Positions 7,517 through 31,120 of a DNA stretch of 37,071 bases are shown here, in pieces. Made by a program: the position numbers and the translations under genes. The stretch comes from Gammaproteobacteria bacterium (GTDB lineage Bacteria; Pseudomonadota; Gammaproteobacteria; SKWO01), in the NCBI GenBank assembly GCA_007128895.1, contig SKWO01000054.1, positions 1-37,071 of the forward strand, given 5' to 3'. How positions within the stretch are numbered: position 1 is the first letter of the stretch; each line of letters begins with the position of its first letter. The notes under the pieces are model-generated. The model did not search any database, had not been told where the DNA came from, and saw nothing but the letters and a program-made list of their open reading frames with translations.

Positions 7517-7552
7517 GGCGGGTACCTGCAATGGATGGCCTGTCGGCCGCCC

Positions 7553-7581
7553 ATTATACGACCCGCGCCGAGGAGTGACCA
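7553..7581 (-). promoter_or_regulatory. promoter of rph
   Basis: On the minus strand, TGGTCA (7576-7581) and a perfect TATAAT (7553-7558) are separated by 17 bases. Transcription would start about 7546, giving a leader of about 30 bases before the rph ATG. The -35 overlaps the ribosome-binding region of the divergent yicC. A second perfect TATAAT, on the plus strand at 7456-7461 inside rph, could serve yicC but lacks a -35. Confidence 0.55.
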
Positions 7582-7583
7582 CG

Positions 7584-9087
<1,504 letters not shown>

Positions 9088-9118
9088 CCGGTGCCAGAGC
9101 GGGCGTGTGCAAGCAAAA

Positions 9119-9147
9119 TTGTGATAGGCCTTCGCAAGGCCTATAAT
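9119..9147 (+). promoter_or_regulatory. promoter of rpoZ-spoT
   Basis: TTGTGA (9119-9124) and a perfect TATAAT (9142-9147) are spaced by 17 bases, which fits sigma70. Transcription would start near 9154, about 34 bases before the rpoZ ATG. The spacer is filled by a perfect inverted repeat, described separately. Confidence 0.65.
9125..9143. repeat. 8-base perfect inverted repeat inside the rpoZ promoter
   Basis: TAGGCCTT (9125-9132) and AAGGCCTA (9136-9143) are exact reverse complements separated by CGC. The dyad fills the space between the -35 and -10 hexamers and touches the -10. It could be a repressor operator, or the stem of a hairpin at the 3' end of the gmk transcript; no T-run follows, so a standard terminator is unlikely. 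Confidence 0.6.
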
Positions 9148-9187
9148 AAACGGTTACCCCCTGAATACCCGCTTGCGGAGGAAGAGC

Positions 9188-9517
9188 ATGGCCCGTATTA
9201 CCGTCGAAGACTGCCTCGATAACGTCGATAACCGTTTCCAGTTGGTGCTGGCCGCCTCGATGCGGGCGCGGCAGCTGGCCAACGGCGCCGAGGCGCGCGT
9301 CGAGTGGGAGAACGACAAGCCGACCGTGGTGGCGCTGCGCGAGATCGCCGATGGGCTGACCGGCCTTGAGGTGCTCGACGAGGAGAGCCGTCAGAAGCGG
9401 GCCGCCTCGACCATCGATGAGGCGCAGATTGTGGCCGAGTTGCAGGCCGAGCTGCGCGCCGAGGCGGGCGAAGAGGCCGCCGGTGGCGCTGCCATGGAGG
9501 ACGAGGGCGCCGAGTAA
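9188..9517 (+). CDS. rpoZ: RNA polymerase omega subunit
   Basis: Small subunit that helps fold and hold the beta' subunit and forms part of a ppGpp-binding site on RNA polymerase. The product is 109 residues and begins [20 protein letters not shown], the standard omega N-terminus, with the [15 protein letters not shown] block near residue 43. The C-terminal third is rich in Glu and Ala and varies in the family. The ATG at 9188 follows a GGAGGAAGAG ribosome-binding site. spoT follows immediately, so the two genes of the stringent response are expected on one transcript. Confidence 0.97.
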
Positions 9518-9536
9518 GCGCCCTCACGCCAGCGCC

Positions 9537-11675
9537 GTGAGCGCGACTCTGCCGTCCGTTCACAAGATTCACGACCTCGTTGCGGTCGTCGATACCTACC
9601 TCAAGCCGGAACAGGTAGCCGAGATCTACCGTGCCTACCTGTTCGGCGCCGAGGCACATGAAGGGCAGTGCCGCATGTCCGGCGAGCCCTATATCTTTCA
9701 TCCCCTCGCCGTGGCCCTGATCCTGGCCGAGATGCGTCTCGACTACGAGAGCATCATCGCCGCCCTGCTGCACGACGTGATGGAGGATACCGGCACCCGC
9801 AAGGAGGAGCTCGCCCACGCCTTTGGTGAAGAGGTGGCCGAGCTGGTCGACGGGGTCAGCAAGCTGACCCACATCCACTTCGAGAGCAAGGCGGAGGCGC
9901 AGGCGGAGAACTTCCGCAAGATGATGCTGGCGATGGTGCGCGATCTGCGCGTCATCCTGATCAAGCTGGCCGACCGTCTGCACAACATGCGCACGCTCGG
10001 CATCATGCGCCCGGACAAGTGCCGCCGCATCGCCCGTGAGACACTCGAGATCTACGCCCCGATCGCCCACCGCCTGGGCATGAACCGGGTGCGTCTGGAG
10101 CTGGAGGAGCTCGGCTTTGCCGCCCACTGGCCGCTGCGCCACCGGGTGTTGGCCGAGGCGGTGCGCAAGGCGCGCGGCAACCGGCGCGAGGTGATCAACC
10201 GCATCGAGACGTCACTCGGGGAGCGGCTGCAGCAGGAGGGGATCACCTGCGAGGTGCAGGGACGGCAGAAGCACCTCTACAGCCTCTATCGCAAGATGGT
10301 GCACAAGCACCTCTCCTTCGGCGAGGTGCTCGACCTCTACGCCTTTCGCATCGTGGTCGACTCGGTCGACACCTGCTACCGCGTGCTCGGCGTGGTGCAC
10401 AACCTGTACAAGCCCAAGCCCGGCACCTTCAAGGACTACATCGCCATTCCCAAGGCGAACGGCTACCAGTCGCTGCACACCGTGCTGTTCAATCCGTACG
10501 GCTTTCCCATCGAGGTACAGATCCGTACCCGGGACATGGATCAGGTGGCCGAGGCCGGCATCGCCGCCCACTGGCTCTACAAGACCGACGGCAGCAGCAG
10601 CAGCGCGCAGAGCCGCGCCCGCGACTGGCTGCGCGGCCTGTTGGAGCTGCAGCAGTATGCCGGCGACTCGATGGAGTTTCTGGAACACGTCAAGATCGAC
10701 CTCTTCCCGGACGAGGTCTACGTCTTCACCCCGCAGGGCGAGATTCGTGTCCTGCCGCGTGGCGCCACCCCGGTCGATTTTGCCTACGCGGTGCACAGTG
10801 ATGTTGGCAACACCTGTGTCGCTGCCCGGGTCAATCAGCATCTGGTGCCGCTGCGCAGCGAGCTGTTGACTGGCCAGACGGTGGAGATCATCACCGCCGC
10901 CGGCGCCCGACCCAACCCGGCCTGGCTCGACTTCGTGGTCACCGCCAAGGCGCGCTCGGCCATTCGCAACTATTTGAAGAATCTCAAAGAGGACGACGCG
11001 ATTGCGCTCGGACGCCGGCTCCTTGAGCGCGCCTTGGGCAGCCTCTCCCTGAGCCTGGACAGTCTGCCGGATGGGCGTTTGCAGGCGCTGCTGGCGCAGA
11101 CCGGCAGCGAGAGCCTGGATCAGCTGCTGGCGGAAATCGGCCTGGGCAAGCGCATGCCGCTGCTGACGGCGCGCGCACTGGCCCCGGAGGGGCAGGATGA
11201 GGCGCCGGAGGTGGGCGATAGCGCCGGCGAATCGCGCCCGCTCTCGATCCGTGGCACCGAGGGCATGGTGGTCAGCTTTGCGCGCTGCTGCCGCCCGATC
11301 CCGGGTGACTCGATCCTCGGCTTCCTCTCGGCGGGACGCGGCATCGTCATCCATACCCAGTCGTGCAAGAATGTCGGCGAGTTTCGCAACAAGCCGGACA
11401 AGTGGATCGATGTCCAGTGGGAGCCGCAGACCGAGGGCGAGTTTCCGGTCGAGGTGCGCGCCCAGGTGGCCAACCAGCGCGGCGTGCTGGCGACCGTGGC
11501 CGCGGCGATCGCCGAGATGCACGCCAATATCGAACATGTCCAGATGGACGAGCGCGACGGCAGCCACAGCAGCCTGACCCTGCTGATCACCGTGACCGAT
11601 CGCCGCCATCTGGCCCGTATCCTGCGCCGTCTGCGCCATCTGGAATCGGTGCTGCGCATTCAGCGTACCCGTTAA
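9537..11675 (+). CDS. spoT: bifunctional (p)ppGpp synthetase/hydrolase SpoT
   Basis: Makes and, mainly, degrades the alarmone (p)ppGpp. Domain order over 712 residues: HD hydrolase (HD at 79-80, inside LLHDVMEDT; FRKMMLAMVRDLRVILIKLADR after it), synthetase region (GRQKHLYSLYRK, DLYAFRIVVDS, DYIAIPKANGYQSLHT), TGS (DEVYVFTPQGEI, GATPVDFAYAVHSDVG), then a C-terminal ACT domain. HD and regulatory parts look intact; whether the synthetase is strong cannot be read from the sequence. I chose the GTG at 9537, 19 bases after rpoZ; the frame is open further upstream but runs through rpoZ. The Shine-Dalgarno sequence is weak, so coupling to rpoZ is possible. Confidence 0.96.
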   Translation: MSATLPSVHKIHDLVAVVDTYLKPEQVAEIYRAYLFGAEAHEGQCRMSGEPYIFHPLAVALILAEMRLDYESIIAALLHDVMEDTGTRKEELAHAFGEEVAELVDGVSKLTHIHFESKAEAQAENFRKMMLAMVRDLRVILIKLADRLHNMRTLGIMRPDKCRRIARETLEIYAPIAHRLGMNRVRLELEELGFAAHWPLRHRVLAEAVRKARGNRREVINRIETSLGERLQQEGITCEVQGRQKHLYSLYRKMVHKHLSFGEVLDLYAFRIVVDSVDTCYRVLGVVHNLYKPKPGTFKDYIAIPKANGYQSLHTVLFNPYGFPIEVQIRTRDMDQVAEAGIAAHWLYKTDGSSSSAQSRARDWLRGLLELQQYAGDSMEFLEHVKIDLFPDEVYVFTPQGEIRVLPRGATPVDFAYAVHSDVGNTCVAARVNQHLVPLRSELLTGQTVEIITAAGARPNPAWLDFVVTAKARSAIRNYLKNLKEDDAIALGRRLLERALGSLSLSLDSLPDGRLQALLAQTGSESLDQLLAEIGLGKRMPLLTARALAPEGQDEAPEVGDSAGESRPLSIRGTEGMVVSFARCCRPIPGDSILGFLSAGRGIVIHTQSCKNVGEFRNKPDKWIDVQWEPQTEGEFPVEVRAQVANQRGVLATVAAAIAEMHANIEHVQMDERDGSHSSLTLLITVTDRRHLARILRRLRHLESVLRIQRTR

Positions 11676-11699
11676 ACGTCTATCCAAGGAGAGAGGACC

Positions 11700-12089
11700 A
11701 TGAGCCGACGCACCCCCATCACCACCGACCGCGCCCCGCAGGCGATCGGTACCTACTCCCAGGCAGTACGGGTCGGCACCACGGTCTACCTCTCCGGCCA
11801 GATCCCGCTGGTGCCGGAGACGATGGCGCTGGTGGAGGGCGACATGGCGGCACAGATCAGCCAGGTCTTCGATAACCTTGCCGCCGTGGCCGAGGCGGCC
11901 GGCGGCTCACTGGCCGATGTCGTCAAGCTCAACGTCTTTCTCACTGATCTGGGCCACTTCCCGCTGGTCAACGAGGTGATGGCGCGCTACTTCAGCGAGC
12001 CCTACCCGGCGCGTGCCGCGATCGGGGTGGCTGCACTGCCCAAGGGGGCGGCGGTGGAGATGGACGCCATCCTCGAACTCGAGCGGTAA
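11700..12089 (+). CDS. ridA: RidA family enamine/imine deaminase
   Basis: Hydrolyses reactive enamines and imines such as 2-aminoacrylate that leak from pyridoxal-phosphate enzymes. The 129-residue protein shows [12 protein letters not shown] at 12-23, [10 protein letters not shown] at 30-39 and the active-site Arg105 and Glu120 region. AAGGAG lies 8 bases or so before the ATG. Its position between spoT and recG is conserved in several gammaproteobacteria and fits one long transcript, with recG beginning 9 bases after its stop. Confidence 0.95.
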
Positions 12090-12098
12090 GCAGCCGGC

Positions 12099-14171
12099 GT
12101 GATCGACGCCGCCCTGCCCGTCACCGCGCTCAAGGGGGTCGGCCCGCGGCTGGCCGAGCGGCTGCAGCGGCTCGGCATCCACCACGTCCACGACCTGCTC
12201 TTCCACCCGCCGCTGCGCTACCAGGATCGCACCCGTGTGGTGCCGATCGGCGGCCTGCGTCCGGGCGACGAGGCGGTGGTGCAAGGGCGTGTCGAGCTGA
12301 GCGACCTGCAGCGCGGACGCCGTGCGATGTGGCTGGTGCGCATCAGCGATGGCAGCGGTGCGCTGACCCTGCGTTTCTTCCATTTCAGTGCCGCGATGCG
12401 GGCCACGCTGGCGCGGGGCGCCACTGTGCGCTGTTTCGGTGAGGTGCGGCGGGGTGCGGCCGCGCTGGAGATGGTCCACCCCGAGTTTCGCCTGGTCGAC
12501 CCCGAGGCGCCGGTACCGGTCGAGGCGGCGCTGACCCCGATCTATCCGACCACCGAGGGGCTCAGCCAGCAGAGCCTGCGCAACCTGACCGAGCAGGCGC
12601 TGGCCCTCTGCTCGGACGGCACGATCCCGGACTGGCTGCCGACGCCGCTGCTGGCCCCGCTTGGCCTGCCGCCGCTGGCCGAGGCGCTGCGCTTTGTCCA
12701 TCGGCCGCCACCCGAGGTCGAGCGTGCCCGGCTGCAGGCCGGGGCCTACCCGGCCCAGCAGCGGCTGGTCTTCGAGGAGCTGCTGGCCCACCACCTGAGT
12801 CTGCGCATCCTGCGCGCGCGCGCCCATCGCCATCAGGCCCCTGTGTTGAGGGGTGACGGTGCGCTGCGCACCGCCCTGCAGCAGCGCCTGCCCTTTGCGC
12901 TGACTGCCGCCCAGCAGCGGGTAATCGCCGAGCTGGCCAGCGACCTGCAGCGGGATCACCCGATGCAGCGCATGGTGCAGGGCGATGTCGGTTGCGGCAA
13001 GACGGTGGTGGCGGTACACGCCGTGCTGCAGGCGGTGGAGGCCGGCTATCAGGCGGTGGTGATGGCGCCGACCGAACTGCTGGCCGAGCAGCACCGGGAC
13101 AATTTCCAGCTCTGGCTGACGCCGCTCGGCCTCGAGGTGGCGTGGCTCAGCGGGCGGGTCAAGGGGCGGCGGCGCGAGGCGGCGCTGGCACAGTTGGCCA
13201 GCGGTACCGCTCGCGTCGCGGTCGGCACCCACGCCCTGTTTCAGGACGACGTCCGCTTTCACGCCCTGGGTCTGGTGATCATCGACGAGCAGCACCGCTT
13301 CGGCGTCCATCAGCGGCTCGCCCTGCGCGAGAAGGGCTGCCACCAGGGGCGCTATCCGCACCAGTTGATCATGACGGCGACGCCGATTCCGCGCAGTCTG
13401 GCGATGACCGCCTACGCCGACCTCGACCTCTCGGTGATCGACGAGCTGCCGCCGGGGCGCACACCGGTGGAGACGGTGGCGCTCCCCGACAGCCGGCGCG
13501 ACGAGGTGGTCGAGCGGGTGCGCGCCGCCTGTGGTGGTGGGCGCCAGGCCTATTGGGTCTGCACCCTGATCGAAGAGTCGGAGGCGCTGCAATGCCAGGC
13601 GGCGGAGCAGACCGCGGCCCTGCTGGCCGAGCAGCTGCCGGAGCTGCGCGTCGCGCTGGTGCATGGCCGCCTGAAGGCGAGCGAGAAGGCGGCGCGGATG
13701 GCGGCCTTCAAGGCCGGTGACTGCGACCTGCTGGTCGCCACCACGGTGATCGAGGTCGGCGTCGATGTGCCCAACGCCAGCCTGATGATCATCGAGAACC
13801 CGGAGCGGCTCGGGCTGGCCCAGCTGCACCAGCTGCGCGGTCGGGTCGGTCGGGGCAGCCGCGCCAGTGTCTGCCTGTTGATGTATCATAGCCCGCTGTC
13901 GGAGAACGCCCGCGCCCGGCTGGCGGTATTGCGCGAGAGCAACGACGGCTTCGAGATCGCGCGGCGCGACCTCGAGCTGCGCGGCCCCGGCGAACTGCTT
14001 GGCACGAGGCAGACCGGCCTGCAGCAGCTGCGCATCGCCGATCTGGTACGGGATCGCGACTGGTTGCCGCAGGTGGCCCAGGCCGCCGACGGCCTGCTGC
14101 GCGACCACCCGGCATCGGCCCGCGCCCTGATCCGGCGCTGGGTGCCCGGCGAGATCTACGGAGACGTATGA
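12099..14171 (+). CDS. recG: ATP-dependent DNA helicase RecG
   Basis: Branch-migrating helicase that remodels stalled replication forks and Holliday junctions. The 690-residue protein begins with the wedge/OB-fold part (LKGVGPRLAERLQRLGI near residue 10), followed by helicase motifs: GDVGCGKT near residue 295, APTELLAEQH, the Walker B variant DEQHRFGVHQR near 396, TATPIPRSLA, and in the second RecA domain TTVIEVGVDVPNA and QLRGRVGRG. Translation starts at GTG 12099. Its stop overlaps the ubiC ATG (ATGA), indicating coupling. Confidence 0.97.
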   Translation: MIDAALPVTALKGVGPRLAERLQRLGIHHVHDLLFHPPLRYQDRTRVVPIGGLRPGDEAVVQGRVELSDLQRGRRAMWLVRISDGSGALTLRFFHFSAAMRATLARGATVRCFGEVRRGAAALEMVHPEFRLVDPEAPVPVEAALTPIYPTTEGLSQQSLRNLTEQALALCSDGTIPDWLPTPLLAPLGLPPLAEALRFVHRPPPEVERARLQAGAYPAQQRLVFEELLAHHLSLRILRARAHRHQAPVLRGDGALRTALQQRLPFALTAAQQRVIAELASDLQRDHPMQRMVQGDVGCGKTVVAVHAVLQAVEAGYQAVVMAPTELLAEQHRDNFQLWLTPLGLEVAWLSGRVKGRRREAALAQLASGTARVAVGTHALFQDDVRFHALGLVIIDEQHRFGVHQRLALREKGCHQGRYPHQLIMTATPIPRSLAMTAYADLDLSVIDELPPGRTPVETVALPDSRRDEVVERVRAACGGGRQAYWVCTLIEESEALQCQAAEQTAALLAEQLPELRVALVHGRLKASEKAARMAAFKAGDCDLLVATTVIEVGVDVPNASLMIIENPERLGLAQLHQLRGRVGRGSRASVCLLMYHSPLSENARARLAVLRESNDGFEIARRDLELRGPGELLGTRQTGLQQLRIADLVRDRDWLPQVAQAADGLLRDHPASARALIRRWVPGEIYGDV

Positions 14172-14698
14172 AGACCCAATGGCACCATCCGAACTGGTCC
14201 GCTCCCAAGCCCAGTGCTGCGCTGCGCGCACGCCTGCTTGACCCGACCTCGCTGACCCGCCGGCTGACGGCTGAGTGCGGCCACTTCAGCGTGCGTCTGC
14301 TGGCGCAGCGCCGCCAGCGCCCCTACCGCGACGAGGCCGTACTGCTGGGGCTGCGGCGGGGCGAGTGGGCCTTGGTGCGCCGCGTGCTGCTGCTCTGTGA
14401 TGGCGAACCGGTGGTCTATGCGCGCACGGTGATCCCGCCGAAGAGCCTGAGTGGGCCGCGCCGGCGTCTGCTCCACCTCGGTAGCCGTTCCCTTGGCGGT
14501 GTGCTCTTCGCCAGCCACTCGCTGCATCGAACCGAGCTGCAGTTGACCCGCTTGCACCCTGGCCAGCCCCTGCACCGTGAGGCGACTGCCGCGGCGGGCG
14601 ATCGCGCTGCCCCAGTCTGGGGGCGGCGCTCCTGCTTTACCCTGCACGGTGCGTCGCTACTGGTCAGCGAGTTCTTTCTGCGCGGGGAGGCCGACTGA
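14168..14698 (+). CDS. ubiC: chorismate pyruvate-lyase
   Basis: Removes pyruvate from chorismate to give 4-hydroxybenzoate, the ring precursor of ubiquinone. The 176-residue product has the family's SLTRRL start region, [19 protein letters not shown]-like segment near 55, the [12 protein letters not shown] block, the [11 protein letters not shown] motif with the conserved glycines, and the WGRRSCF and LLVSEFFL C-terminal blocks. Overlaps recG by 4 bases and precedes ubiA by 1 base, so ubiC-ubiA are translated together and form the first two steps of the pathway. Confidence 0.92.
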
Positions 14699-14699
14699 G

Positions 14700-15547
14700 A
14701 TGGTGGCGCGCCTGGCTCAGTACGCCCTGCTGATGCGGCTGCACCGACCGGTCGGCATCTTTCTGCTGCTGTGGCCGACCCTCTGGGCTCTGTGGATCGC
14801 GGCCGAAGGGGTGCCGGCGTGGCCGGTGTTGCTGGTCTTCGTCGCCGGGGTCGTGCTGATGCGCTCGGCTGGCTGTGTGATCAACGACTACGCCGACCGC
14901 CACATCGATCGCCACGTACGCCGCACCCGGGATCGCCCGCTGACCAGCGGTCGGGTCACCGAGCGCGAGGCGCTGGCGCTCTTCGCCGTGCTCTGCCTGA
15001 TCGCCTTCCTGCTGGTGCTGACACTCAACCGGCTGACGGTGCTGCTCGCCTTCGGTGCCGTGACGCTGGCCGCGATCTACCCCTTCATGAAGCGCCACAC
15101 CCACCTGCCGCAGATCGTCCTGGGTGCGGCCTTCGGCTGGGCCGTGCCGATGGCCTTTGCCGCCGTCACCGGCGCCGTCCCGCCCGGTGCCTGGCTGCTC
15201 TTTACCGCCACCGTGCTGTGGACCACCGCCTACGACACCATGTATGCCATGGTCGATCGCGACGACGACCTCAAGATTGGTGTACGCTCGACCGCGATCC
15301 TCTTCGGCGACAGCGACCGGGTGATGATCGGGCTGCTGCAACTGTTGACTCTGGCGGCGCTCTGGCTGGCCGGAGAGGCGTTCGAGCTGGGGCTCTACTG
15401 GTGGCTGGGGATGGCCGCGGCGACACTGCTGGGTCTCTACCAGCAGTGGCTGATCCGTCGCCGCGATCGGGCCGACTGCTTCACCGCCTTCAGCAACAAC
15501 AACTGGCTTGGGCTGGTGCTTTTCCTTGGGTTGCTGGCGGAGTTCGC

Positions 15548-15557
<10 letters not shown>
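14700..15557 (+). CDS. ubiA: 4-hydroxybenzoate octaprenyltransferase
   Basis: Integral membrane enzyme that joins a polyprenyl diphosphate to 4-hydroxybenzoate in ubiquinone synthesis. The 285-residue protein has about eight or nine hydrophobic segments, the first aspartate-rich motif [12 protein letters not shown] and the second, [17 protein letters not shown], both needed for magnesium-diphosphate binding. The ATG at 14700 has GGGGAGG in the ubiC tail as ribosome-binding site; the frame is open upstream only because of GC bias. It overlaps the following ABC gene by 10 bases. Confidence 0.96.
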
Positions 15558-16441
<884 letters not shown>

Positions 16442-16463
16442 CGCCATTCTGTCGGAGCCGTTC

Positions 16464-17498
16464 ATGCGATTGCGTCGTCTCTATGCGCTGGTGGTAGCGC
16501 GCAACAAGGAGTTCACCCGTGACCGCCATGCGCTGGGGTGGAACCTGCTCTTTCCGCTGGTGGTGGTGATCGGGCTCGCCTTTGCCTTCTCGGAGGAGAG
16601 CGAGCGTATGCCGTGGAAGGTCGCCGTTCACGGTGAGGCGGCCACGCCTGCGCAGGAAGCGCTGCTTGGGCTGCGCCACGTCGATTACCTGCCGGTCGAC
16701 GAACTGGAGCGGGCGGTGCGCAGCGTCGAGCGCCATCGGGTTGATCTGCTGCTCGCCTTTGACGGGGTGCAGACGCGCTACTGGAGCAACGACGACAATC
16801 CGGCCGCTTACCTGCTCGAGCGGGCGCTGCTGGCGGCGCTGGCTGAGGCAGCGCCGGGGCAGGTGCCGGAGTTGCAGCGGGCCCAGGTCAGTGGGGCGCA
16901 AGTCAGCTATGTGCAGTGGGTGCTGCCGGGGGTGCTGGCGGTCAATATCATGTTCAGCGCGCTCTATGGGATCGGCTTCGTGACCGTGCGCTACCGCAAG
17001 AATGGCGTGCTCAAGCGGTTGCGGGCGACCCCGCTCAGGGCCAGTGACTTCCTGTTGGCTCAGCTGCTCTCGCGCATCTGGCTGATCGTGCTGGTCAGTG
17101 TCCCGCTCTTTGCCGGCATGGCGTGGTTTCTCGGTCTTGCCGTCGAGGGGTCGCCGTGGCTGCTGCTGCTGGTCTTGTTGGTAGGGACCTTCAGCCTGAT
17201 CGCGATGGGGATGATCGTGGCGGCGCGTCTGGTCAGCGAGGAGCTGGCCGACGGCCTGCTCAATCTGATCAGTTGGCCGATGATGCTGCTCTCGGGGGTC
17301 TGGTTCTCACTGGAGGGGGCGCACCCGGCCATGCAGGCGCTGGCGGCGCTGTTGCCGCTGACCCACATGCTGGAGGCGGCACGCGGCATCATCTTCGACG
17401 GCCATGGGCTGCTCGAGATTGCCCCCCATCTGGCCGCGCTGGTGCTGATGACCGCCCTCTTTCTCGCCGTCGGCGCGCGCCTGTTTCGCTGGGAGTAG
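16464..17498 (+). CDS. ABC-2 type transporter permease
   Basis: Membrane subunit paired with the preceding ATPase. The 344-residue protein has one N-terminal membrane segment (about 25-40), a soluble loop of about 120 residues that probably faces the periplasm, then five hydrophobic segments between about 150 and 340. RYRKNGVLKRLRATPL and the SGVWFSLEGA region match the ABC-2 membrane family. It begins 22 bases after the ATPase stop and ends 3 bases before the stop of the convergent ferredoxin gene. Substrate unknown. Confidence 0.9.
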   Translation: MRLRRLYALVVARNKEFTRDRHALGWNLLFPLVVVIGLAFAFSEESERMPWKVAVHGEAATPAQEALLGLRHVDYLPVDELERAVRSVERHRVDLLLAFDGVQTRYWSNDDNPAAYLLERALLAALAEAAPGQVPELQRAQVSGAQVSYVQWVLPGVLAVNIMFSALYGIGFVTVRYRKNGVLKRLRATPLRASDFLLAQLLSRIWLIVLVSVPLFAGMAWFLGLAVEGSPWLLLLVLLVGTFSLIAMGMIVAARLVSEELADGLLNLISWPMMLLSGVWFSLEGAHPAMQALAALLPLTHMLEAARGIIFDGHGLLEIAPHLAALVLMTALFLAVGARLFRWE

Positions 17499-17501
17499 CG
17501 C

Positions 17502-17786
<285 letters not shown>

Positions 17787-17791
17787 CTATT

Positions 17792-18292
<501 letters not shown>

Positions 18293-18889
18293 TCAGGCGA
18301 TAGTGTAGCGCAACAGACGGCCGATGACCTGCCCGGCGCGCGTCTCCCGGTGCGGAGTGAGTTCGGCAGGTAGGGGAGGGGCGTCGGCGGTATCGGCGGG
18401 GTGCTCCAGATAGAGCAGGGCACCCCTTTGCAGCCAGCCACGCGCGATCAGCCGTTGGCAGGCGGGCAGCCACAGGTCGGCATCAAACGGTGGGTCGAGA
18501 AAGGCGATATTGAACGGGGCCACGGGGGCCGCGTCGAGCCAGTGCAGGCCATCGGCCTCGATCAGTTCGGCGCCGGTGGCTTCCAACTGGGCAATGCTGT
18601 CGCGCAGTCGGGCGGCGGCCTGCGGCTGGCGTTCAATCAGCACACTGGTAGCGGCACCGCGTGAGAGTGCCTCCAGCCCCAGCGCCCCGGAGCCGGCAAA
18701 GAGGTCGAGGCAGCGGGCTCCGGGGAGCTCGAAGGCGAGCCAGTTGAAGAGCGTTTCACGCAGCCGATCGGGTGTTGGTCGCAGACCGGGCAGGTCGCTG
18801 ACGGTGAGTTGCCGACCGCGCCAGCGACCACCGATGATGCGAACCCGCCCCCCATTATCCGGGCGCCGGGCGGCACGCCGTCGGCTCAC
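18293..18889 (-). CDS. rsmD: 16S rRNA (guanine966-N2)-methyltransferase
   Basis: Methylates N2 of G966 in 16S rRNA of the assembled 30S subunit. The 198-residue protein has RIIGGRWRGRQL near the N-terminus, RPTPDRLRETLFNWL (37-51), SAM-binding LDLFAGSGALGLEALSRG (61-78) and catalytic DPPF (132-135). The start is GTG, whose bases overlap the stop codon of the upstream M16 peptidase gene, so it is probably translationally coupled. coaD follows 24 bases downstream. Confidence 0.95.
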   Translation of the reverse strand: MSRRRAARRPDNGGRVRIIGGRWRGRQLTVSDLPGLRPTPDRLRETLFNWLAFELPGARCLDLFAGSGALGLEALSRGAATSVLIERQPQAAARLRDSIAQLEATGAELIEADGLHWLDAAPVAPFNIAFLDPPFDADLWLPACQRLIARGWLQRGALLYLEHPADTADAPPLPAELTPHRETRAGQVIGRLLRYTIA

Positions 18890-20238
18890 TCGCCGCCGAC
18901 CCGGATCACGCTCATCCGCTGCGGGTCGACCCGCCGCTGGAAGGCGTCGCGGATCTGTTCGACGGTGACGGCATTGACCGCCTCGTTATAGCGGTCAAGC
19001 CAGTCGAGCGGGCGCTCGTTGAAGCCGATCGCGGCGACCTGGGCAACGATCTTGCGGTTGTTGTCGATATTGAGGGCAAAGCCACCGGTGATGTTGCGCT
19101 GGGCGAGGACCAGCTCGGCCTCGCTCGGCCCTTCGGTGATGAAGTCGTCGAGCAGGTTGAAGAGCAGCTCCAGCGCGGCGTCGGCATTCGCGTTGGCGGT
19201 CTGCATCGAGAGCAGCAACGGGCCGTGGCCGTGCAGCGGCGTGATGCTGCTGCGCGCGCTGTAGGCCAGCCCGCGCTGATCACGCACCTGAGCGAAGATG
19301 CGCGAGGTGAAGCTGCCGCCACCGAGGATGTGGTTGCCGACCAGCAGGGCGAAGTGGTCGGGGTCGTCGAGGCCGAGCAGTGGCAGACCGACGTGGATGT
19401 GGCTCTGTGCCGAGGGATGGCTCTGCACGCGGTGCTCGCCCTGAGCCGGCGGTGTGGCGATGGGCAGGGACGGGTGGTGGCTGCCCGACGGCAGGCCGCC
19501 AACGGCGGCTTCGGCCACCGCCTCAGCGGCGGCGCGGTCGAGGTCACCGACGATGGCCAGTACGCTGTTGGCGCCGGTGTAGTGGCGGGCGTGGAATTGC
19601 TGCAGGTCGCTGCGCCCGAGTGCGGCGAGGCTCGCCTCGCTGCCCAGCGGGTTGTGCGCGTACGGGTGGTCGGCATAGAGGGTCTGCCAGACCAGGTTGC
19701 CGGCGACGGCGCCGGGTGACTGGCGCTGGGCGCGCAGACTGACCAGGGTGCGTGCCACTTCGCGGCGCAGGTCGGCCTCGGGGAAATCGGGGCGTTGCAG
19801 GATGCGGGCGAAGTTGTTCAGCGCTGGCTCCAGAATGGCCGGATCGCTCAGGCTACGCAGGGAGAGGCTGGCAGAGCTGCGCCCGGCACTGGCGCTGAAC
19901 TCGGCGCCGAGCTGTTCGAAGCGGTCAGCGAGTTCGGCGAGGTCGAGGCCATCGGCACCGGCTTCGAGCAGGTTGGCGGTGAGTCGGGCGAGGCCGGGAC
20001 GCTCACCATCACGCGCACTGCCGGCGTCGATCATGAGGTACAGATCGACCATCGGCAGCTCGCGCGCCTCGACGAAGAGGACACGGGTACCGTTGCGGGT
20101 GGTCCACTGTTCGATGGTCGGGCCGGAGGCGGCACTGGCGGTGGCCTCCGGGCGCGGTGTCTGGTTGGCGCAGCCGCCCAGCAGCAGGAGGGCGCTCAGC
20201 AGCACAGTGGTGAGAAAGAAGGGGGTGGCTCTGTACAT
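18886..20238 (-). CDS. M16 peptidase-like lipoprotein, non-catalytic partner
   Basis: Second member of an M16B pair, 450 residues, with a lipobox (LGGC, Cys23), so it should be membrane anchored. At the place where active M16 enzymes have HxxEH it reads GLARLTANLLEAG, so the zinc ligands are missing; it keeps the RDQRGLAYSARSSI arginine/tyrosine block that non-catalytic partners use for substrate binding. The ATG at 20238 has AAGGAA upstream; an in-frame ATG at 20262 gives a longer, less hydrophobic start. Follows the catalytic M16 gene by 36 bases, and the two probably act as a heterodimer in the periplasm. Substrate unknown. Confidence 0.92.
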   Translation of the reverse strand: MYRATPFFLTTVLLSALLLLGGCANQTPRPEATASAASGPTIEQWTTRNGTRVLFVEARELPMVDLYLMIDAGSARDGERPGLARLTANLLEAGADGLDLAELADRFEQLGAEFSASAGRSSASLSLRSLSDPAILEPALNNFARILQRPDFPEADLRREVARTLVSLRAQRQSPGAVAGNLVWQTLYADHPYAHNPLGSEASLAALGRSDLQQFHARHYTGANSVLAIVGDLDRAAAEAVAEAAVGGLPSGSHHPSLPIATPPAQGEHRVQSHPSAQSHIHVGLPLLGLDDPDHFALLVGNHILGGGSFTSRIFAQVRDQRGLAYSARSSITPLHGHGPLLLSMQTANANADAALELLFNLLDDFITEGPSEAELVLAQRNITGGFALNIDNNRKIVAQVAAIGFNERPLDWLDRYNEAVNAVTVEQIRDAFQRRVDPQRMSVIRVGGE

Positions 20239-20274
20239 GGTCGTTTCCTTGCGTGGACGCATGGGCGTGGCGGC

Positions 20275-21651
20275 CTATCGGGCGTGCATCAGCGGACGGC
20301 TATCGCCGAGGCCGTGGCCAGGCGGCGCTGCGCCGGCGATCGGTTCGAGGATGCCTACGGTCAGCCGGTCGTCGACCAGATAGCGGCGAGCGACCGACTG
20401 AACCTGCTCCGGGGTGACGGCGCGGATGCGCTCGGCGTAGGCGTCGAGCTCGCGCCAGCCGATGCCGGCCGTCTCCAGCATGCCGAGCAGCATCCCCTGG
20501 TAGAAGAGCGAGTCCTGCTGGAAGACGTTGTCGGCCAGGACGCGGATGCGAATGCGCTCCAGCTCGCTTTCGTCCACCCGCTCATCACGTAGCCGCGCCA
20601 CCTCGGCGCGCAGGGCCGCCTCGACCGCCGCGACATCGTGACCGTCGGCAGGAACGGCATTGACGGTAAAGAGGTCGTCGAGGCGTGCGTAGAGGTTGTA
20701 GCCGGTGCTGACGCTGCTGACGATCTCGCGCTCGCGCTCCAGCCGGCTCTGCAGGCGGGCGGTGGTCGAGCCGCCGAGGACGGCGGCGGCCACGGCCAGG
20801 GCGTAGGCGTCGTCCGGGTCGTCGGCGGTGGCCAGCGACGGGGTCAGGTAGCGCAGGCTGACCAGCGGCACCTGGGCCGGGATGCGCACCGTGGCGCGTC
20901 GCTCACCCAGCGGTTCGACCTCCGGGCGCGGCTTGGGCGGCACGATCGCGCGCGCCGGGATCGGCCCGAAGTGGCGCTGCGCCTTGGCGTGGACGGCCTC
21001 GGCATCGACATCGCCGACCACCACCAGAATGGCGTTGTTCGGGGCGTACCAGCGTGCATACCAGGCGCGCAGATCGTCGAGGGTATAGGACTCGATATCG
21101 CTCATCCAGCCGATGATCGCGTGGCGGTAGGGGCTGGAGGCGAAGGCGACGGCGTTGAAGCGCTCACCGGCCACGGCGCGTGGGTTGTCGTCCAGGGTCA
21201 GGCGGCGCTCCTCCTTGATCACCTCCATCTCGCGGGCGAACTCCTCCGGGTCGAAGAGCAGGCCGCGCATGCGGTCGGCCTCCAGATAGAGCATCTTGTC
21301 CAAGTGGACACGATCGATCTGCTGGAAGTAGGCGGTGAAGTCGCGTCCGGTGAAGGCGTTGGAACGGCCGCCGCGCTCGGCCACCAGGCGCGAGAAGACG
21401 CCCGGTCCATACGTCTCGGTGCCCTTGAACATCATGTGCTCGACGGCGTGGGAGATGCCGGTGATGCCGTCGTGCTCGTGGCCGGAGCCGACCCGGTACC
21501 AGACCATGGAGACGGCAACCGGGGCGCGCCGGTCCTCCTTGACCAGGATCTGCATGCCGTTGTCGAGGAAGAACTCATGGACCTCTGCGCTGGCCGGCAG
21601 GGCGGCGATCAGCAGGAGCAGGGCCGGTAGCAGGTGTCTGAATCGGTTCAT
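20275..21651 (-). CDS. M16 family zinc metallopeptidase, catalytic partner
   Basis: Exported zinc peptidase of 458 residues. A signal peptide (MNRFRHLLPALLLLIAALPASA) leads into an M16 domain with the zinc motif HAVEH (68-72) and the distal acidic residues at 147-148 (IKEERRL). A second, inactive-type M16 domain fills the C-terminal half, as in mitochondrial-processing-type peptidases. The ATG at 21651 was chosen over one at 21663 because it gives the best signal peptide and has GGAA upstream. Genes like this pair are often placed next to rsmD and ftsYEX in gammaproteobacteria; here the other side holds a TonB receptor instead. Confidence 0.93.
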   Translation of the reverse strand: MNRFRHLLPALLLLIAALPASAEVHEFFLDNGMQILVKEDRRAPVAVSMVWYRVGSGHEHDGITGISHAVEHMMFKGTETYGPGVFSRLVAERGGRSNAFTGRDFTAYFQQIDRVHLDKMLYLEADRMRGLLFDPEEFAREMEVIKEERRLTLDDNPRAVAGERFNAVAFASSPYRHAIIGWMSDIESYTLDDLRAWYARWYAPNNAILVVVGDVDAEAVHAKAQRHFGPIPARAIVPPKPRPEVEPLGERRATVRIPAQVPLVSLRYLTPSLATADDPDDAYALAVAAAVLGGSTTARLQSRLEREREIVSSVSTGYNLYARLDDLFTVNAVPADGHDVAAVEAALRAEVARLRDERVDESELERIRIRVLADNVFQQDSLFYQGMLLGMLETAGIGWRELDAYAERIRAVTPEQVQSVARRYLVDDRLTVGILEPIAGAAPPGHGLGDSRPLMHAR

Positions 21652-21798
21652 CGCGGGTTCCATGGGTCGTGGGCGAATGGAGTTCTATGCTCCAGACAGT
21701 CGACAGTGGTGCAGGTTCCCCGGCGGGCACCTGACGGCGCAGATCGGGCATCGTAGCACACGACGCTGCGCCATTTGCCCGACTCTGATGAGTGATAT

Positions 21799-21820
21799 GG
21801 CTCAGATTGAGCCGTCTTTT
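21799..21820 (+). terminator. short hairpin with T-run in the TonB receptor leader
   Basis: GGCTCA (21799-21804), GAT loop, TGAGCC (21808-21813), then GTCTTTT. The layout is that of a small intrinsic terminator reading toward the receptor gene, about 100 bases before its start. It could be a leader attenuator or a leftover terminator at the edge of an inserted segment. The stem is only 6 bases. The rest of the 270-base gap 21652-21921 shows no gene, and I find no clear Fur box or cobalamin riboswitch. Confidence 0.35.
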
Positions 21821-21921
21821 GGCGTGGGTGCCGTATCAACAAGCTGTTTATAGGTGGATTGTGAAGTGTGGCACTGGGATTGCTCAAGGTTGTGTCCAAC
21901 GATAAAACGGGATTTCATAGC

Positions 21922-23826
21922 ATGACATTGCATCGCCTTCATCAACCGGCTGTATGGGCGTCACTGGTAACGCTGGCGGTGTTTGTCAGCCCGCCGCCTC
22001 AGGCGAGTGAGCCAAGTGTTTACTCGCTAGATCATATTGTCGTGACAGCAACCGGAAGTGAGGCTCAGGTGCGCGATGTTCAGGCCAGTGTCGAGGTGCT
22101 TGATCGGGACCAGTTCGACCGATTTGGCGGCGCCAGCGTTGGTCAGGCGCTGAAACACGCGCTGGGCGTCAGTACGTCGGACTCGGGGGCGACGGGGGAT
22201 ATCTCGATTCGCGGTTTCAATCGCAATCACACCTTAATTCTGGTCGACGGCTTCAGACGCACTAATAATTACGGCAGCAATAATCTGTCTCAGATCGGCT
22301 TCTTTGATATCGAGCGGATCGAAGTGGTGCGCGGTCCGCTCTCCTCTCTGTATGGTTCGGATGCCCTGGGCGGGGTGGTCAATGTCATCTCACGACACCC
22401 GGGTAGCTCACCCGGCACAGATCTCTACGTTCGTGCAGGCACGGCGGAGCGGGGCAGAGAGTCGCTGCTGACGGGTATCAACCACCGCTTTGGCGACAGT
22501 CAGCTCGGCCACAGCCTGACCCTCGAGCAGAACTACCGCGAACGCCTGCGTCATGCAGGTGCCACCGAGGATGATTTTGGCCGACTGAACAACTGGTCCG
22601 GCAGTTACCGCGGTCGCTGGACACCTGATGGAAACCGCAGCCTGGGTTGGACATTGGAGGCCTTTGAGCGGGACAGTCGGGCGCAGAGGGAAGGTCACAC
22701 CCGTTTTGAGCGCGAGCAACGCCGCTTCGGCAGTCTGGACTACCATCAGCAGCTTGGTGAGGGCGAGCTGGTCGTGCGTGGCAGTGTTGGCAGAAGCCGG
22801 GGCTCGACCAATCGCAGCCACCCGAACATCGAAACCACCGACTTTCATCAATACCAGGCCGATGCGGTCTACCACGCCTATGTTGGTGATGATCACATAG
22901 TCTCTGTGGGGGCAGGGGGTGGCCGTGACCGGCTCGATGTCAGTATCAACAGCCGTATTGCCAGTCGCGATAACCGTTTCGTCCTGCTGCAGGACCAATG
23001 GCAGCTCAATGACCAGTGGATGCTGGTCGCCGGACTGCGTCATGACCATTACGACGATTTTGGCACCACGACCAACCCCAGGATCTCCCTGGGATGGGAG
23101 GGCGGGATCTGGCAGGCGCGTCTGGGCTATGGCACGGCGTTTCGCGCACCATCCCTGCTGGAGCAGTATTCCAGTTTTGTACGTGGCCGGCTGTTGATCC
23201 GCGGCAACCCCGATCTGGAGCCCGAACGGTCCACTACCTGGGAGGCCATGCTGCGGCGTGAGTTTGGCGCCGGCCATGTCGAGCTCACGCTGCACCGCAA
23301 CCGGATCCGTGATCTGATTGAGTCCTTCACCACCGGAGTGGTGCTGCCCGGACCATTGAGCGAGGTCGAGTATCGCAATCTCGGCAAGGCGCATATTGAT
23401 GGGGCCGAACTGCACGCGGTCTGGGCACTGACGCCACGCTGGACGCTCATCCCCTCGGTCGAGTGGCTCGACGCGCGTAACGCCGAGACCGACGAGCGGC
23501 TGACCGGGCGTGCAAGGCAGACGTGGCGTCTGGAGAGCCGTTACCAATCCGGCAAATGGGCGATGAGCGCAAGGGTGCGCCATCTGCATGACTATCTGGC
23601 TGTCGGCATCACGGCCCCGCGGGGCACCCCGCCCCACAATACCGACCTCACCGTCACCGATCTGGGCATTCAGTATCGTTACCGTGGTGGCCTGGAGTTC
23701 TTTGGGGGTATCGACAACCTGTTCGACCGACGCGATCCGGACAACTTTAGTCTGACGGCTACCGGCACCCAGCGTAGTGACCCGGATGCGCGTTTCTTCT
23801 ACTTCGGCGCCCGTGTGTCGTTTTGA
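21922..23826 (+). CDS. TonB-dependent outer-membrane receptor
   Basis: Gated outer-membrane channel of 634 residues that imports a chelated metal or vitamin using TonB energy. A signal peptide (cleavage probably after PPPQA) is followed by a TonB box-like DHIVVTATG, a plug domain with ISIRGFNRNHTLILVDGFRR and IEVVRGPLSSLYGSDALGGVVNVIS, and a barrel ending in aromatic-rich FFYFGARVSF. FRAPSLLEQYSS and GNPDLEPERSTTWE are typical barrel signatures. It most resembles the BtuB/CirA/heme group; the substrate is not determined. The ATG at 21922 gives the signal peptide; an in-frame start at 21868 does not. Base composition is lower in GC than the flanks. The polyferredoxin gene follows 24 bases later. 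Confidence 0.92.
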   Translation: MTLHRLHQPAVWASLVTLAVFVSPPPQASEPSVYSLDHIVVTATGSEAQVRDVQASVEVLDRDQFDRFGGASVGQALKHALGVSTSDSGATGDISIRGFNRNHTLILVDGFRRTNNYGSNNLSQIGFFDIERIEVVRGPLSSLYGSDALGGVVNVISRHPGSSPGTDLYVRAGTAERGRESLLTGINHRFGDSQLGHSLTLEQNYRERLRHAGATEDDFGRLNNWSGSYRGRWTPDGNRSLGWTLEAFERDSRAQREGHTRFEREQRRFGSLDYHQQLGEGELVVRGSVGRSRGSTNRSHPNIETTDFHQYQADAVYHAYVGDDHIVSVGAGGGRDRLDVSINSRIASRDNRFVLLQDQWQLNDQWMLVAGLRHDHYDDFGTTTNPRISLGWEGGIWQARLGYGTAFRAPSLLEQYSSFVRGRLLIRGNPDLEPERSTTWEAMLRREFGAGHVELTLHRNRIRDLIESFTTGVVLPGPLSEVEYRNLGKAHIDGAELHAVWALTPRWTLIPSVEWLDARNAETDERLTGRARQTWRLESRYQSGKWAMSARVRHLHDYLAVGITAPRGTPPHNTDLTVTDLGIQYRYRGGLEFFGGIDNLFDRRDPDNFSLTATGTQRSDPDARFFYFGARVSF

Positions 23827-23850
23827 TTGAACTGCCCAAGGGGCGAACAG

Positions 23851-25293
23851 ATGAGTAAGCAGATTCAGATAAAAGAGGGTATGCATGTGGCCGATGCAGC
23901 GGGGCAAGGTCGGGTACTGACGCACAGGCCGCTGCTCGGCTGGATGCTGCGGCGGGGTTATCTGATGACGGCACTCAGAACGGTCACCTTGTTGCTGTTT
24001 GTCACCGGTGTGGCTACCGGCCTATGGCTGGAGGATGCCAGAGTCGGGCTGGCCACATTACTGATGTGGGGCATTTTCTGGCCGCTTTTCACTAGCGTGG
24101 TGACCCCCTCGCTGGGCAATGTCTACTGTGGCATTTGTCCGCATGGTTTTGTCGGCAAGTGGTTAAGCCGGATCGGTCTGCGCAAGGTATATCCCAGGCG
24201 GTTGCGTGGGGTGTGGGTCGGTCTGGTGGTCATTGTGCTGGCTTACTGGGTGGTGGCCTACGCCATGCCGGGTAGCCTCTCGGCCTCAACCAAGGTGACG
24301 GCCTGGTATTTTCTGGTCTTCACCGTGCTGGCCTTCACTATCTTTTTTATCTATCGGGATATGGCCTGGTGTCAGCACGTCTGCCCGCTAGGGCGCGTGC
24401 TGGCTACCCATGGCAAGGTGGGGGTGTTGCAGATCGATACTGACGCTTCTGCCTGTCAGGACTGCAAGAGCTTTGAGTGCGCCAAGGCGTGCAGTTACCA
24501 CCTGTCACCGTTTCGCTTTGCACAGCGTAATAACATGGAGGCGTGCACGCTGTGCGGTGACTGCCTGACAGCGTGTGAGCATGCACATCTGGTCGGCAAG
24601 AGACCTGGAGTGGTCATGCGCCGACCTGTCGCCGGGCAGGATCGTCACGAGATGTGGGTCTTCCTGATCATTCTCGGTGTCGCCGGGGTGGGGATCCAGT
24701 TCCTGCACGGCCTGCAGCACACGCCACTCAAGCCCTACCTGCCGTGGACGCTGGCTGGCGAGTGGCTGCACGCAAGGGTGGCGCTGGACGCTAGCCTCTT
24801 CAATCTGGGACGCTTTCTGGCGCTGGTACTTGGGATCGGCCTGACCGTGCTGATCGGGCTCTGGGCCTACCGACAAGCTGCCAGGTTGGCCGAAACAAGC
24901 TGGCGCGAGGCCGCCAATACGCTGGCGCTGGGGCTGGCGCCGCTGGCGATCATCGGTCTGATCCCGCATGCGGTGACGACCTTTGCCACCCGAAACGCGC
25001 ACGCGTTGGGCAATGAGATCGGAGCACTCGCCGGGCTGGGTTGGCAGCTCACACCACTAGCTGAACGAGGCGATGCCTGGATCGGCTGGTTGGCGTTGTT
25101 GCCTTATGCAGGTATGGTATGGACGCTCTGGCTGATCTGGCAGCGAGCCAGTCTGCTGGTCCCGGCCGGTTCGCACCTACGCTTGCGCATCTGGCTCTAC
25201 GGCAGTGCACCGGCCCTGCTCTATATTTCGATCTTTCTTACCAAGGTGCTGGCCAACTGGTTGATGCCTGGTGTAGCGCATCATCACCATTGA
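23851..25293 (+). CDS. membrane polyferredoxin, NapH/NosR C-terminal type
   Basis: Integral membrane iron-sulfur protein of 480 residues. Hydrophobic segments lie at about 40-60, 66-83, 120-140, 150-167, 268-285, 320-340, 355-375, 408-430 and 447-467. Between the early membrane segments are CGICPHG (93-99) and CQHVCPLG (174-181), paired CxxC(P)/CxxxCP motifs as in NapH and NosR. Then come two cluster motifs: C202-x2-C205-x4-C210-x3-C214 and C232-x2-C235-x2-C238-x3-C242. The protein ends in four histidines. It should pass electrons across or to the face of the inner membrane; I infer a role in reducing the substrate of the receptor encoded just upstream, but no direct evidence fixes it. AAGGGG precedes the ATG. 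Confidence 0.85.
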   Translation: MSKQIQIKEGMHVADAAGQGRVLTHRPLLGWMLRRGYLMTALRTVTLLLFVTGVATGLWLEDARVGLATLLMWGIFWPLFTSVVTPSLGNVYCGICPHGFVGKWLSRIGLRKVYPRRLRGVWVGLVVIVLAYWVVAYAMPGSLSASTKVTAWYFLVFTVLAFTIFFIYRDMAWCQHVCPLGRVLATHGKVGVLQIDTDASACQDCKSFECAKACSYHLSPFRFAQRNNMEACTLCGDCLTACEHAHLVGKRPGVVMRRPVAGQDRHEMWVFLIILGVAGVGIQFLHGLQHTPLKPYLPWTLAGEWLHARVALDASLFNLGRFLALVLGIGLTVLIGLWAYRQAARLAETSWREAANTLALGLAPLAIIGLIPHAVTTFATRNAHALGNEIGALAGLGWQLTPLAERGDAWIGWLALLPYAGMVWTLWLIWQRASLLVPAGSHLRLRIWLYGSAPALLYISIFLTKVLANWLMPGVAHHHH

Positions 25294-25302
25294 GTTAGGT
25301 TG

Positions 25303-26697
25303 CTATCGGGTAAGGGGGTCGGGCAGCGTCTTGCCCGGGTTGAGGATGGCGCGCGGGTCGAACAGCCGTTTGATGCCGTGCATCACGGCGAGCGCCTGTG
25401 GGTCGAGTTCGCGGCTGATGTAAGCGCGCTTCTCGCTGCCGATGCCGTGCTCGCCGGAGAGGGTGCCGCCGAGCTGCAGCACCAGGTCGAAGAGGCCGTC
25501 CAGGCAGGGGGCGGCAGCGGCCATCTGCTGCGGGTCGTCGGGGTCGATCAGCAGGTTGACGTGGAGGTTGCCGTTGCCGGCGTGGCCGAAGCTGACGATG
25601 GTAATGGCGTGGCGCGCGGCCAACCGGTCGACGCCGTCGAGCAGCGCGGGGATGTGCGAGACCGGCACGACGACGTCCTCGTTGATCTTCTTCGGCGCGA
25701 TGCGGCGCAGCGCCGGCGAGAGCGCCTTGCGCACCGCCCACAGGCGTGCCGCCGCGGTGGCATCGGTGGCGCTGGCAAAGCGCAGCCGTCCATCGACCGC
25801 ACTGGCGGCGTCGATCGCGGCGACCGCCTCGTCGAGCCCGCTGGCAGGGCCGTCGACCTCGATCATCAGCAGGGCGTCGGCCCCCTCTGGCAGGTCGACC
25901 CCATCGGCATCGCGGATCAGGCCGAGGGCGTGGCCGTCGAGCAGCTCGAGGGCGCACGGTACCACCGGCTGCGCCATCAGCCGGGCCACCGCGTGAGCGG
26001 CGGCGACGGCATCGCGGTAGACCGCCTGCATCGTGCGCACCGCCTCTGGTTTTGGCGTCAGGCGCAGGGTCGCCTCGGTAATCACCCCCAGCGTCCCTTC
26101 GGAACCGATCAGCAACCGGGTCAGGTCGTAGCCGACCACCCCTTTGGTGGTGCGGGTGCCGCTGTGGACGATGCTGCCGTCACCGGTCACGGCGGTGAGG
26201 CCAAGGACATTCTCGCGCGTAGTGCCGTACTTGACCGCGCGCGGCCCGGCCGCGTTGCAGCCGAGGTTGCCGCCAAGGGTACAGAAGGGGGCGCTGGTCG
26301 GATCGGGTGGCCAGAAGAAGCCGTGCTCGCCGGCAGTGCGCTGGATCTCGGCGTTGAGTACGCCGGGCTGGGCCACCAGCAGGCGGTTGTCGGGGTCGAC
26401 CTCGAGGATGCGGTTCATCCGCTCCAGCGAGAGGACCACGCCGCCGGCCAGCGGCACCGCGCCGCCGGCGGTGCCGGTGCCGCGTCCGCGCGTGGTCAGC
26501 GGGGTGGTGAAGTCGTGGCAGGCACGCACCACGGCGGCGACGCTGGCCGTGTCACGGGCCAGCACCACGGCGTCGGGCGCGTGGTGACGGCGGCTGTTGT
26601 CACCGCCATAGGGCCAGCAGTCGCCGGGGGCGGTGAGCAGCTGCTCGCCCCCGACCGCCTCCCGCAACGCTTGCAGCAGGGCGGGGTCGAGCGCCAT
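25303..26697 (-). CDS. FAD-linked oxidase, GlcD/D-lactate dehydrogenase type
   Basis: Flavoprotein of 464 residues that oxidises a 2-hydroxy acid such as glycolate or D-lactate. N-terminal FAD-binding domain: [23 protein letters not shown]-type segment near 70-92 and [25 protein letters not shown] near 145; C-terminal domain: [13 protein letters not shown] and [15 protein letters not shown], with the histidines expected for substrate and flavin. The ATG at 26697 shares a base with the stop codon of the preceding pyrD (TGATG), so they are coupled. The open frame to 27168 runs antisense-free through pyrD and is not used. No glcE or glcF is adjacent, so it probably works alone as a D-lactate dehydrogenase-like enzyme; the substrate is inferred. 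Confidence 0.88.
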
Positions 26698-30781: not shown

Positions 30782-31120
30782 TTACGGCTCCTGGTGTGCG
30801 CTGCAGAAGACCTCGCGCATCATGCCGATCAGGTGCAGGGTACGGCTGTCGCTGACCCGGTAGTAGACCCGGTTGGCGTCCTTGCGCGAGGCGAGGATGC
30901 CCTTGTCGCGCAGGATCGCCAGGTGTTGGGAGATGTTGCTTTGCGAGGTGCCGACGCTGTCGACGATGCCCTGCACGCTGATCTCGCGATCACCGATCAC
31001 GCAGAGGATCTTCAGGCGCAACGGGTGTGACATCGCCTTGAGCGAGCGGGAGGCGCGGTTGATATCGCTGTCGCGGGTCATCAGCCCGCCGGCATTCTCT
31101 ACGGTGTCGATCATGGCCAT
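30782..31120 (-). CDS. ArsR family repressor, sulfide/persulfide sensor type
   Basis: Winged-helix transcription repressor, 112 residues. The helix-turn-helix reads TSQSNISQHLAILRDKGIL (59-77), preceded by LKAMSHPLRLKILC (27-40). The only cysteines are Cys40 and Cys106, placed as in YgaV, BigR and SqrR, which form a disulfide or polysulfide link in response to sulfide and release DNA; the CxCxC-type metal site of ArsR/SmtB proteins is absent. It precedes the DUF2892 gene on the same strand. Start choice between ATGs at 31120 and 31114 is open; no good ribosome-binding site is seen. The sensing function is inferred from cysteine positions. Confidence 0.88.
   Translation of the reverse strand: MAMIDTVENAGGLMTRDSDINRASRSLKAMSHPLRLKILCVIGDREISVQGIVDSVGTSQSNISQHLAILRDKGILASRKDANRVYYRVSDSRTLHLIGMMREVFCSAHQEP

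Follow-up and report, generated by a model that had tools for sequence, protein, structure and literature searches.

A TonB-dependent receptor-polyferredoxin gene pair as a candidate copper-acquisition module in a gammaproteobacterium

Known copper systems and the receptor-polyferredoxin locus

Copper uptake and reduction in Gram-negative bacteria are poorly known; the literature read yielded only a few receptors for copper and, as candidate reductases, two types, CcoG and CrpH. The plan of a TonB-dependent receptor (TBDT) joined to an inner-membrane reductase is itself known from CrtA-CrpH. In the cruR-crtA-crpH operon of Bordetella, CruR is a proven copper-responsive sensor and leader (PMC9426467; PMC12914433, PMC13038864). 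Three other described proteins bear on the present case: the OprC/NosA receptors (TIGR01778); CcoG (FixG/RdxA), which is reported to reduce Cu(II) and not Fe(III) (PMC7558416); and the NosL chaperone, a free lipoprotein that binds Cu(I) (PMC6530538).

The window analyzed here is a 37,071-nucleotide stretch of contig SKWO01000054.1 (positions 1 to 37,071) of a gammaproteobacterium, hereafter the host. It carries a TBDT gene and, on the same strand after a spacing of 24 nt, a gene for a membrane polyferredoxin (PFD) (Table 1). Position 21799, where an earlier span for the pair began, lies in leader DNA and is not a gene start.

Table 1. Features of the TBDT-PFD pair and its surroundings in the window
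Feature	Coordinates	Strand	Remarks
rsmD, 16S rRNA methyltransferase	18293-18889	-	
M16B, second M16 peptidase	18886-20262	-	
M16A, M16 peptidase	20275-21663	-	divergent left neighbor of the pair; marks synteny break
Intergenic leader upstream of TBDT	21664-21921	+	no CruR/DUF2946 ORF, Rfam riboswitch or convincing Fur box
TBDT, TonB-dependent receptor	21922-23826	+	ATG 21922, stop 23826; 634 aa
PFD, membrane polyferredoxin	23851-25293	+	ATG 23851, stop 25293; 480 aa
FAD-linked oxidase gene	25303-26679	-	convergent right neighbor; 9 nt from PFD stop

The locus resembles the Bordetella pertussis system in that a TBDT gene is followed by a gene for a putative inner-membrane metal reductase. Moreover, four members of the window's clade have a CruR (DUF2946) leader, which the window itself lacks; there is a link to heme-copper oxidases, and some loci have a dedicated ExbBD/TonB set. 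It differs in that the putative reductase here is a 4Fe-4S polyferredoxin, unrelated to the PepSY_TM heme protein CrpH, and in that the receptor of the window falls outside the CrtA family. We found no description of a polyferredoxin acting as reductase in this new receptor clade in the open-access literature searched, an incomplete collection, and the text of the CruR survey makes no mention of ferredoxins. If our reading of the pair is true, PFD would be a third type of reductase, one whose fold has yet to be solved, and the receptor would represent a new clade.

Anatomy of the receptor and the polyferredoxin

The product of the first gene has a signal peptide, a Pfam Plug domain (92.9 bits) and a barrel (145.7 bits), which identify it as a TonB-dependent receptor, and a TonB-box-like sequence, DHIVVTATG. 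Among solved structures it is closest to CirA (iron-catecholate) and BtuB, and its structure model matches CirA at a TM score of 0.82. By sequence, it scores 275 bits against CirA, versus 73 bits, in the plug only, against CrtA (9rvq). Three assignments were rejected. OprC/NosA (TIGR01778, at least 472 bits) is not among the best 25 of 33 models, the lowest of which scores 40 bits; the likeness to OprC/NosA lies in outer-membrane copper uptake under the proposed reading and not in family membership. CrtA fails by length (634 aa, versus 707-911 aa in the CrtA cluster), by the confinement of the 9rvq match to the plug, and by gene order, the next gene encoding PFD and not a PepSY_TM protein. As for a vitamin B12 receptor, the best NCBIfam model, TonB-B12, gives only 222 bits against a cutoff of 600, and there is no cobalamin riboswitch in the window or in the six kin loci scanned.

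PFD contains Fer4_5 (35.5 bits in Pfam) and two ferredoxin-type Cys motifs, with 12 conserved Cys residues in all; among 59 sequences, eleven are conserved at 100% and the twelfth at 98%. Judged by sequence, these are enough for three [4Fe-4S] clusters, predicted to lie on the cytosolic side. The AlphaFold2 model, which is confident (pLDDT 89.4, pTM 0.88), has about nine transmembrane (TM) helices. From these helices, hydrophobicity and the positive-inside rule, we assign a probable topology in which four TM helices precede a cytosolic ferredoxin part, five more follow it, and the C terminus is periplasmic; Lys plus Arg per residue is 0.171 in the loops called inside versus 0.081 in those called outside. 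H286 and H373, both 100% conserved, fall at periplasmic ends of helices in the predicted topology. The C-terminal tail is HHHH in the window and HMHH or HAH in others, and 50 of 55 short tails contain His. In 19 of the 80 listed loci (see below), a NosL domain (CGM, CSxHC) occupies the tail position, replacing or extending the tail. Longer extensions (DUF4198-like, with a further TM helix) occur in 30 of the 80, 12 of them with NosL. The PFD of the window has no NosL domain, and where the domain does occur it is fused to the polyferredoxin, unlike the free chaperone.

PFD does not belong to any of the families that it recalls. With CcoG it shares its place in the membrane and the CxxxCP and ferredoxin-type 4Fe-4S motifs. 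However, it lacks Fer4_18 and FixG_C, having only Fer4_5 in Pfam, while the real CcoG of the host has both; additional TM helices in the C-terminal half of PFD and its periplasmic His tail set it further apart. The two proteins are 23% identical, with a profile match confined to the ferredoxin part. With NapH/MauN it shares Fer4_5, the Cys spacing and a weak HMM match (37.4 and 36.5 bits, versus NCBIfam cutoffs of 213 and 234), but PFD is about 200 aa longer and has a C-terminal membrane half of its own. Nor is it a PepSY_TM protein. As regards FtrD of the FtrABCD iron system, we noticed no ftr genes in the vicinity of PFD. A PDB search with the model found no solved structure resembling PFD by fold (best E 0.38), and none was found by sequence. 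We define the TBDT-PFD module by a TBDT directly upstream, the 12 Cys residues, H286, H373 and a His-rich C terminus, all of which the window has.

Distribution of the pair and the case for copper

We scanned 84,980 species genomes; 80 of the 107 loci obtained are listed and form the basis of the locus counts. A TBDT gene lies upstream of PFD on the same strand in 74 of these 80, directly in 48, with one gene between in 17 and with about three in 9; in four of the remaining six the contig stops less than 700 nt from PFD. The adjacency that the earlier note had asked to see in other genomes is therefore found, and the pair is not rarely adjacent elsewhere. The loci are spread over Proteobacteria, Campylobacterota, Aquificota and other groups. 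Partner TBDTs differ for the most part between the two large PFD clades, belonging to a CirA/BtuB-like or a siderophore/PqqU-like subfamily, and ExbB-ExbD and TonB genes are close by in about a third of loci. This conserved gene order supports a true functional pair. Four loci, L023 to L026, were rejected as members; their polyferredoxins are distant, and a nitrate-reductase-like large subunit is encoded in the same clusters.

The pair is widespread in Sulfurimonas, Arcobacter and related bacteria, which are important in sulfur and nitrogen cycling. The long form found in Campylobacterota also encodes a second, NapH-like polyferredoxin, a DsbD_2 protein, a double-cubane reductase (NF040772, 346.5 bits versus a cutoff of 350) with its ATPase activator and sometimes an RND pump. 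In L041 (positions 6289-19579) and about 26 other Campylobacterota loci, TBDT, DsbD_2, PFD (often with NosL) and NapH-like genes stand with an HgdB-type double-cubane gene, its activator and RND genes. Such operons suggest ATP-driven low-potential reduction within a TonB uptake operon. If this is true, they would link double-cubane ATP-driven reductases, and ATP-boosted low-potential electrons, to metal uptake.

The earlier note had left the metal as iron, copper or another. We can narrow this to copper, which is favored over iron for the module because of marks found in relatives: CruR leaders, NosL fusions, a TonB-copper receptor neighbor and a heme-copper oxidase neighbor. A CruR-like leader ORF precedes the TBDT in 4 of the 9 loci of the window's clade (L029, L030, L031 and L035), ending 50-68 nt before it. 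In these ORFs a CxxC motif (CxxxC in L035) is followed after 43-45 residues, as against the 45-residue spacing of the CruR criterion, by RAPP (RASP in L029), which stands 2-3 residues before the end. DUF2946 exceeds its cutoff of 23.7 bits in L029 (34.6) and L035 (27.1) and falls below it in L030 (19.7) and L031 (15.1). The CruR motif pattern has 5 matches in 2.9 million six-frame codons of the loci, all five just before TBDTs, and none in 1.26 million control codons. Directly after PFD, L029 encodes a TIGR01778 copper receptor of the OprC type (797.6 bits), and L103 has a TIGR01778-like receptor after PFD, with COX1 adjoining. In L029 (8123-10645), a second CruR heads the OprC-type receptor that follows the CruR-TBDT-PFD set, so that two copper receptors stand in tandem.

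Neither in the window nor in Nitrincola, its nearest kin, is there a CruR leader, a NosL domain or an adjoining copper gene. A leader ORF at about 21677-21853 contains CAIC, but it was rejected as CruR, having neither a DUF2946 match nor RAPP. Box scans upstream of the pair in the window gave nothing convincing for Fur, Zur, FNR, CueR or CsoR-like sites, and a Pfam survey of operon neighbors showed no further copper or iron bias. The host itself needs copper, because its genome has CcoG and CcoI genes and an oxidase subunit I gene, truncated where its contig stops, that we read from its sequence as probably of the cbb3 type. An ArsR/SmtB-family regulator gene at 30782-31120 of the window (81 bits to a metalloregulator model) lies 5.5 kb from the pair.

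On balance, we think it fairly probable that the pair is a module for copper acquisition gained by horizontal transfer, in which the TBDT would import a Cu(II)-chelate and PFD would reduce the metal to Cu(I). The receptor would draw on TonB energy to carry chelated Cu(II) to the periplasm. PFD would take electrons from a cytosolic donor into its three predicted [4Fe-4S] clusters and pass them to copper at a periplasmic His-rich metal site, where it would hold Cu(I) or hand it on, in the host most likely to cbb3 oxidase assembly. We infer reductive metal release from the anatomy, and also infer the copper cargo in this host, the reduction reaction, the electron donor and the crossing of the membrane by electrons. 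We identified in PFD neither a heme pair nor any other obvious route or cofactor for electrons across the membrane, and reduction of copper on the cytosolic side, as by CcoG, is a rival to the periplasmic site. The broader proposal, that TBDT-PFD is an undescribed phylum-spanning system of reductive copper uptake yielding Cu(I) at the periplasmic face, to which the Campylobacterota form adds NosL, the NapH-like protein and the ATP-driven double-cubane reductase, is put forward tentatively.

Iron is the obvious competitor, with the TBDT importing a ferric siderophore or heme and PFD reducing periplasmic Fe(III) so that Fe(II) is released. The receptor is indeed nearest CirA in both sequence and fold, the partner receptors in Campylobacterota match siderophore models best, and PFD adjoins CobN/HmuS-like genes in L022 and L061. 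HmuS takes iron from heme (PMC12583661). Set against this are the copper leader CruR in the window's own clade, the NosL fusions to PFD, the lack of a convincing Fur box upstream in the window, and the absence of cobalamin or other riboswitches from the seven loci scanned (the window and six kin loci). We therefore regard an iron module as unlikely. A cargo that varies by lineage, with PFD as a general donor for periplasmic release and the receptor setting the metal or chelate, would accommodate both receptor subfamilies and the differing accessory genes (ExbBD-TonB, DsbD_2, double-cubane reductase and activase, CobN-like). Copper marks, however, are found on either side of the PFD tree, where the proteobacterial clade has CruR and Campylobacterota have NosL, and we hold this alternative to be quite unlikely.

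In L061 (7774-17673) and L022 (5811-14441), PFD and TBDT adjoin a CobN/HmuS-like chelatase, an ExbB-like protein and DUF2149; these neighbors may point to a tetrapyrrole-bound metal in some lineages, which counts against copper as the general cargo. L061 is also the only locus with a PepSY_TM protein, located after PFD.

Composition, site and origin

The earlier note had called the pair an acquired, low-GC cassette differing sharply in composition from its neighbors. Its three hand-made GC counts were reproduced exactly on recounting: 45.8% at 22201-22320, 55.8% at 24301-24420 and 73.3% at 12121-12240. The contrast itself holds in a milder form; the pair does have lower GC and atypical codons, but the 46% patch is an extreme and the deficit of the whole pair is moderate. 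Against a baseline of 383 windows of 3.5 kb from 256 kb of host genome, the pair has 60.7% GC versus 66.3% (sd 2.3; z = -2.5), and 0.8% of host windows are as low. GC3 is 0.69 and 0.72 in the two genes versus 0.75-0.91 in trusted host genes, with one exception, a further TBDT at 0.675. Trusted genes were used here in place of all long ORFs because many of the latter are probably wrong-frame in a high-GC genome. When 22 genes were ranked by codon atypicality with leave-one-out scoring, PFD came first, another host TBDT second and the TBDT of the pair third.

The site is also unusual. In 25 of the 29 best M16 relatives, ftsY is directly divergent from M16A, which bears out the claim that the M16 pair commonly lies beside ftsY and that TBDT-PFD takes its place here. 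The host has its own ftsY and cell-division ABC genes on another contig, C38 (L166), where ftsY, the ABC partner genes and an rpoH-like sigma gene adjoin a hemL-like gene and not the M16 pair. The other flank differs as well, an FAD-oxidase/DHOD block bordering the pair. Since ftsY has moved away and the other flank also differs, we describe a rearranged site and not a demonstrated clean insertion. As for signs of a mobile element, there is no tRNA at the pair, and there are no flanking repeats beyond gene-internal ones. What stands of the acquired cassette is thus the foreign composition and the broken ancestral gene order, and what does not is a clean insertion.

Full-length PFD occurs in only 2 other genomes of the 369 in our class sample, at 49% (G308) and 29% (G066). 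The nearest kin of the pair is in Nitrincola (59%), and in the tree the PFD of the window is sister to that of Nitrincola lacisaponensis (SH-aLRT 99), within a proteobacterial clade that also holds Thioalkalivibrio, Pseudomonas, Ectothiorhodospiraceae and Tistrella. The refuting case named in the earlier note, close relatives all carrying the pair here with matching composition, did not arise among the genomes compared. Because of the patchy distribution in the class, the synteny break, the Nitrincola sister position and the composition, the pair was likely acquired horizontally, and as a pair, the genomes compared including none of the same family or order. For that reason kin may carry the pair, and both genes could be old residents of the lineage whose composition drifted, a reading that the odd composition of another host receptor gene, on contig C33, also favors. 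Yet the rarity of full-length PFD in the class, the break in gene order exactly at the pair and the well-supported sister position all speak against long residence, which we judge quite unlikely.

The other host TBDT gene just mentioned (L167, 6151-8235) has codon usage as atypical as that of the pair; it was possibly acquired too.
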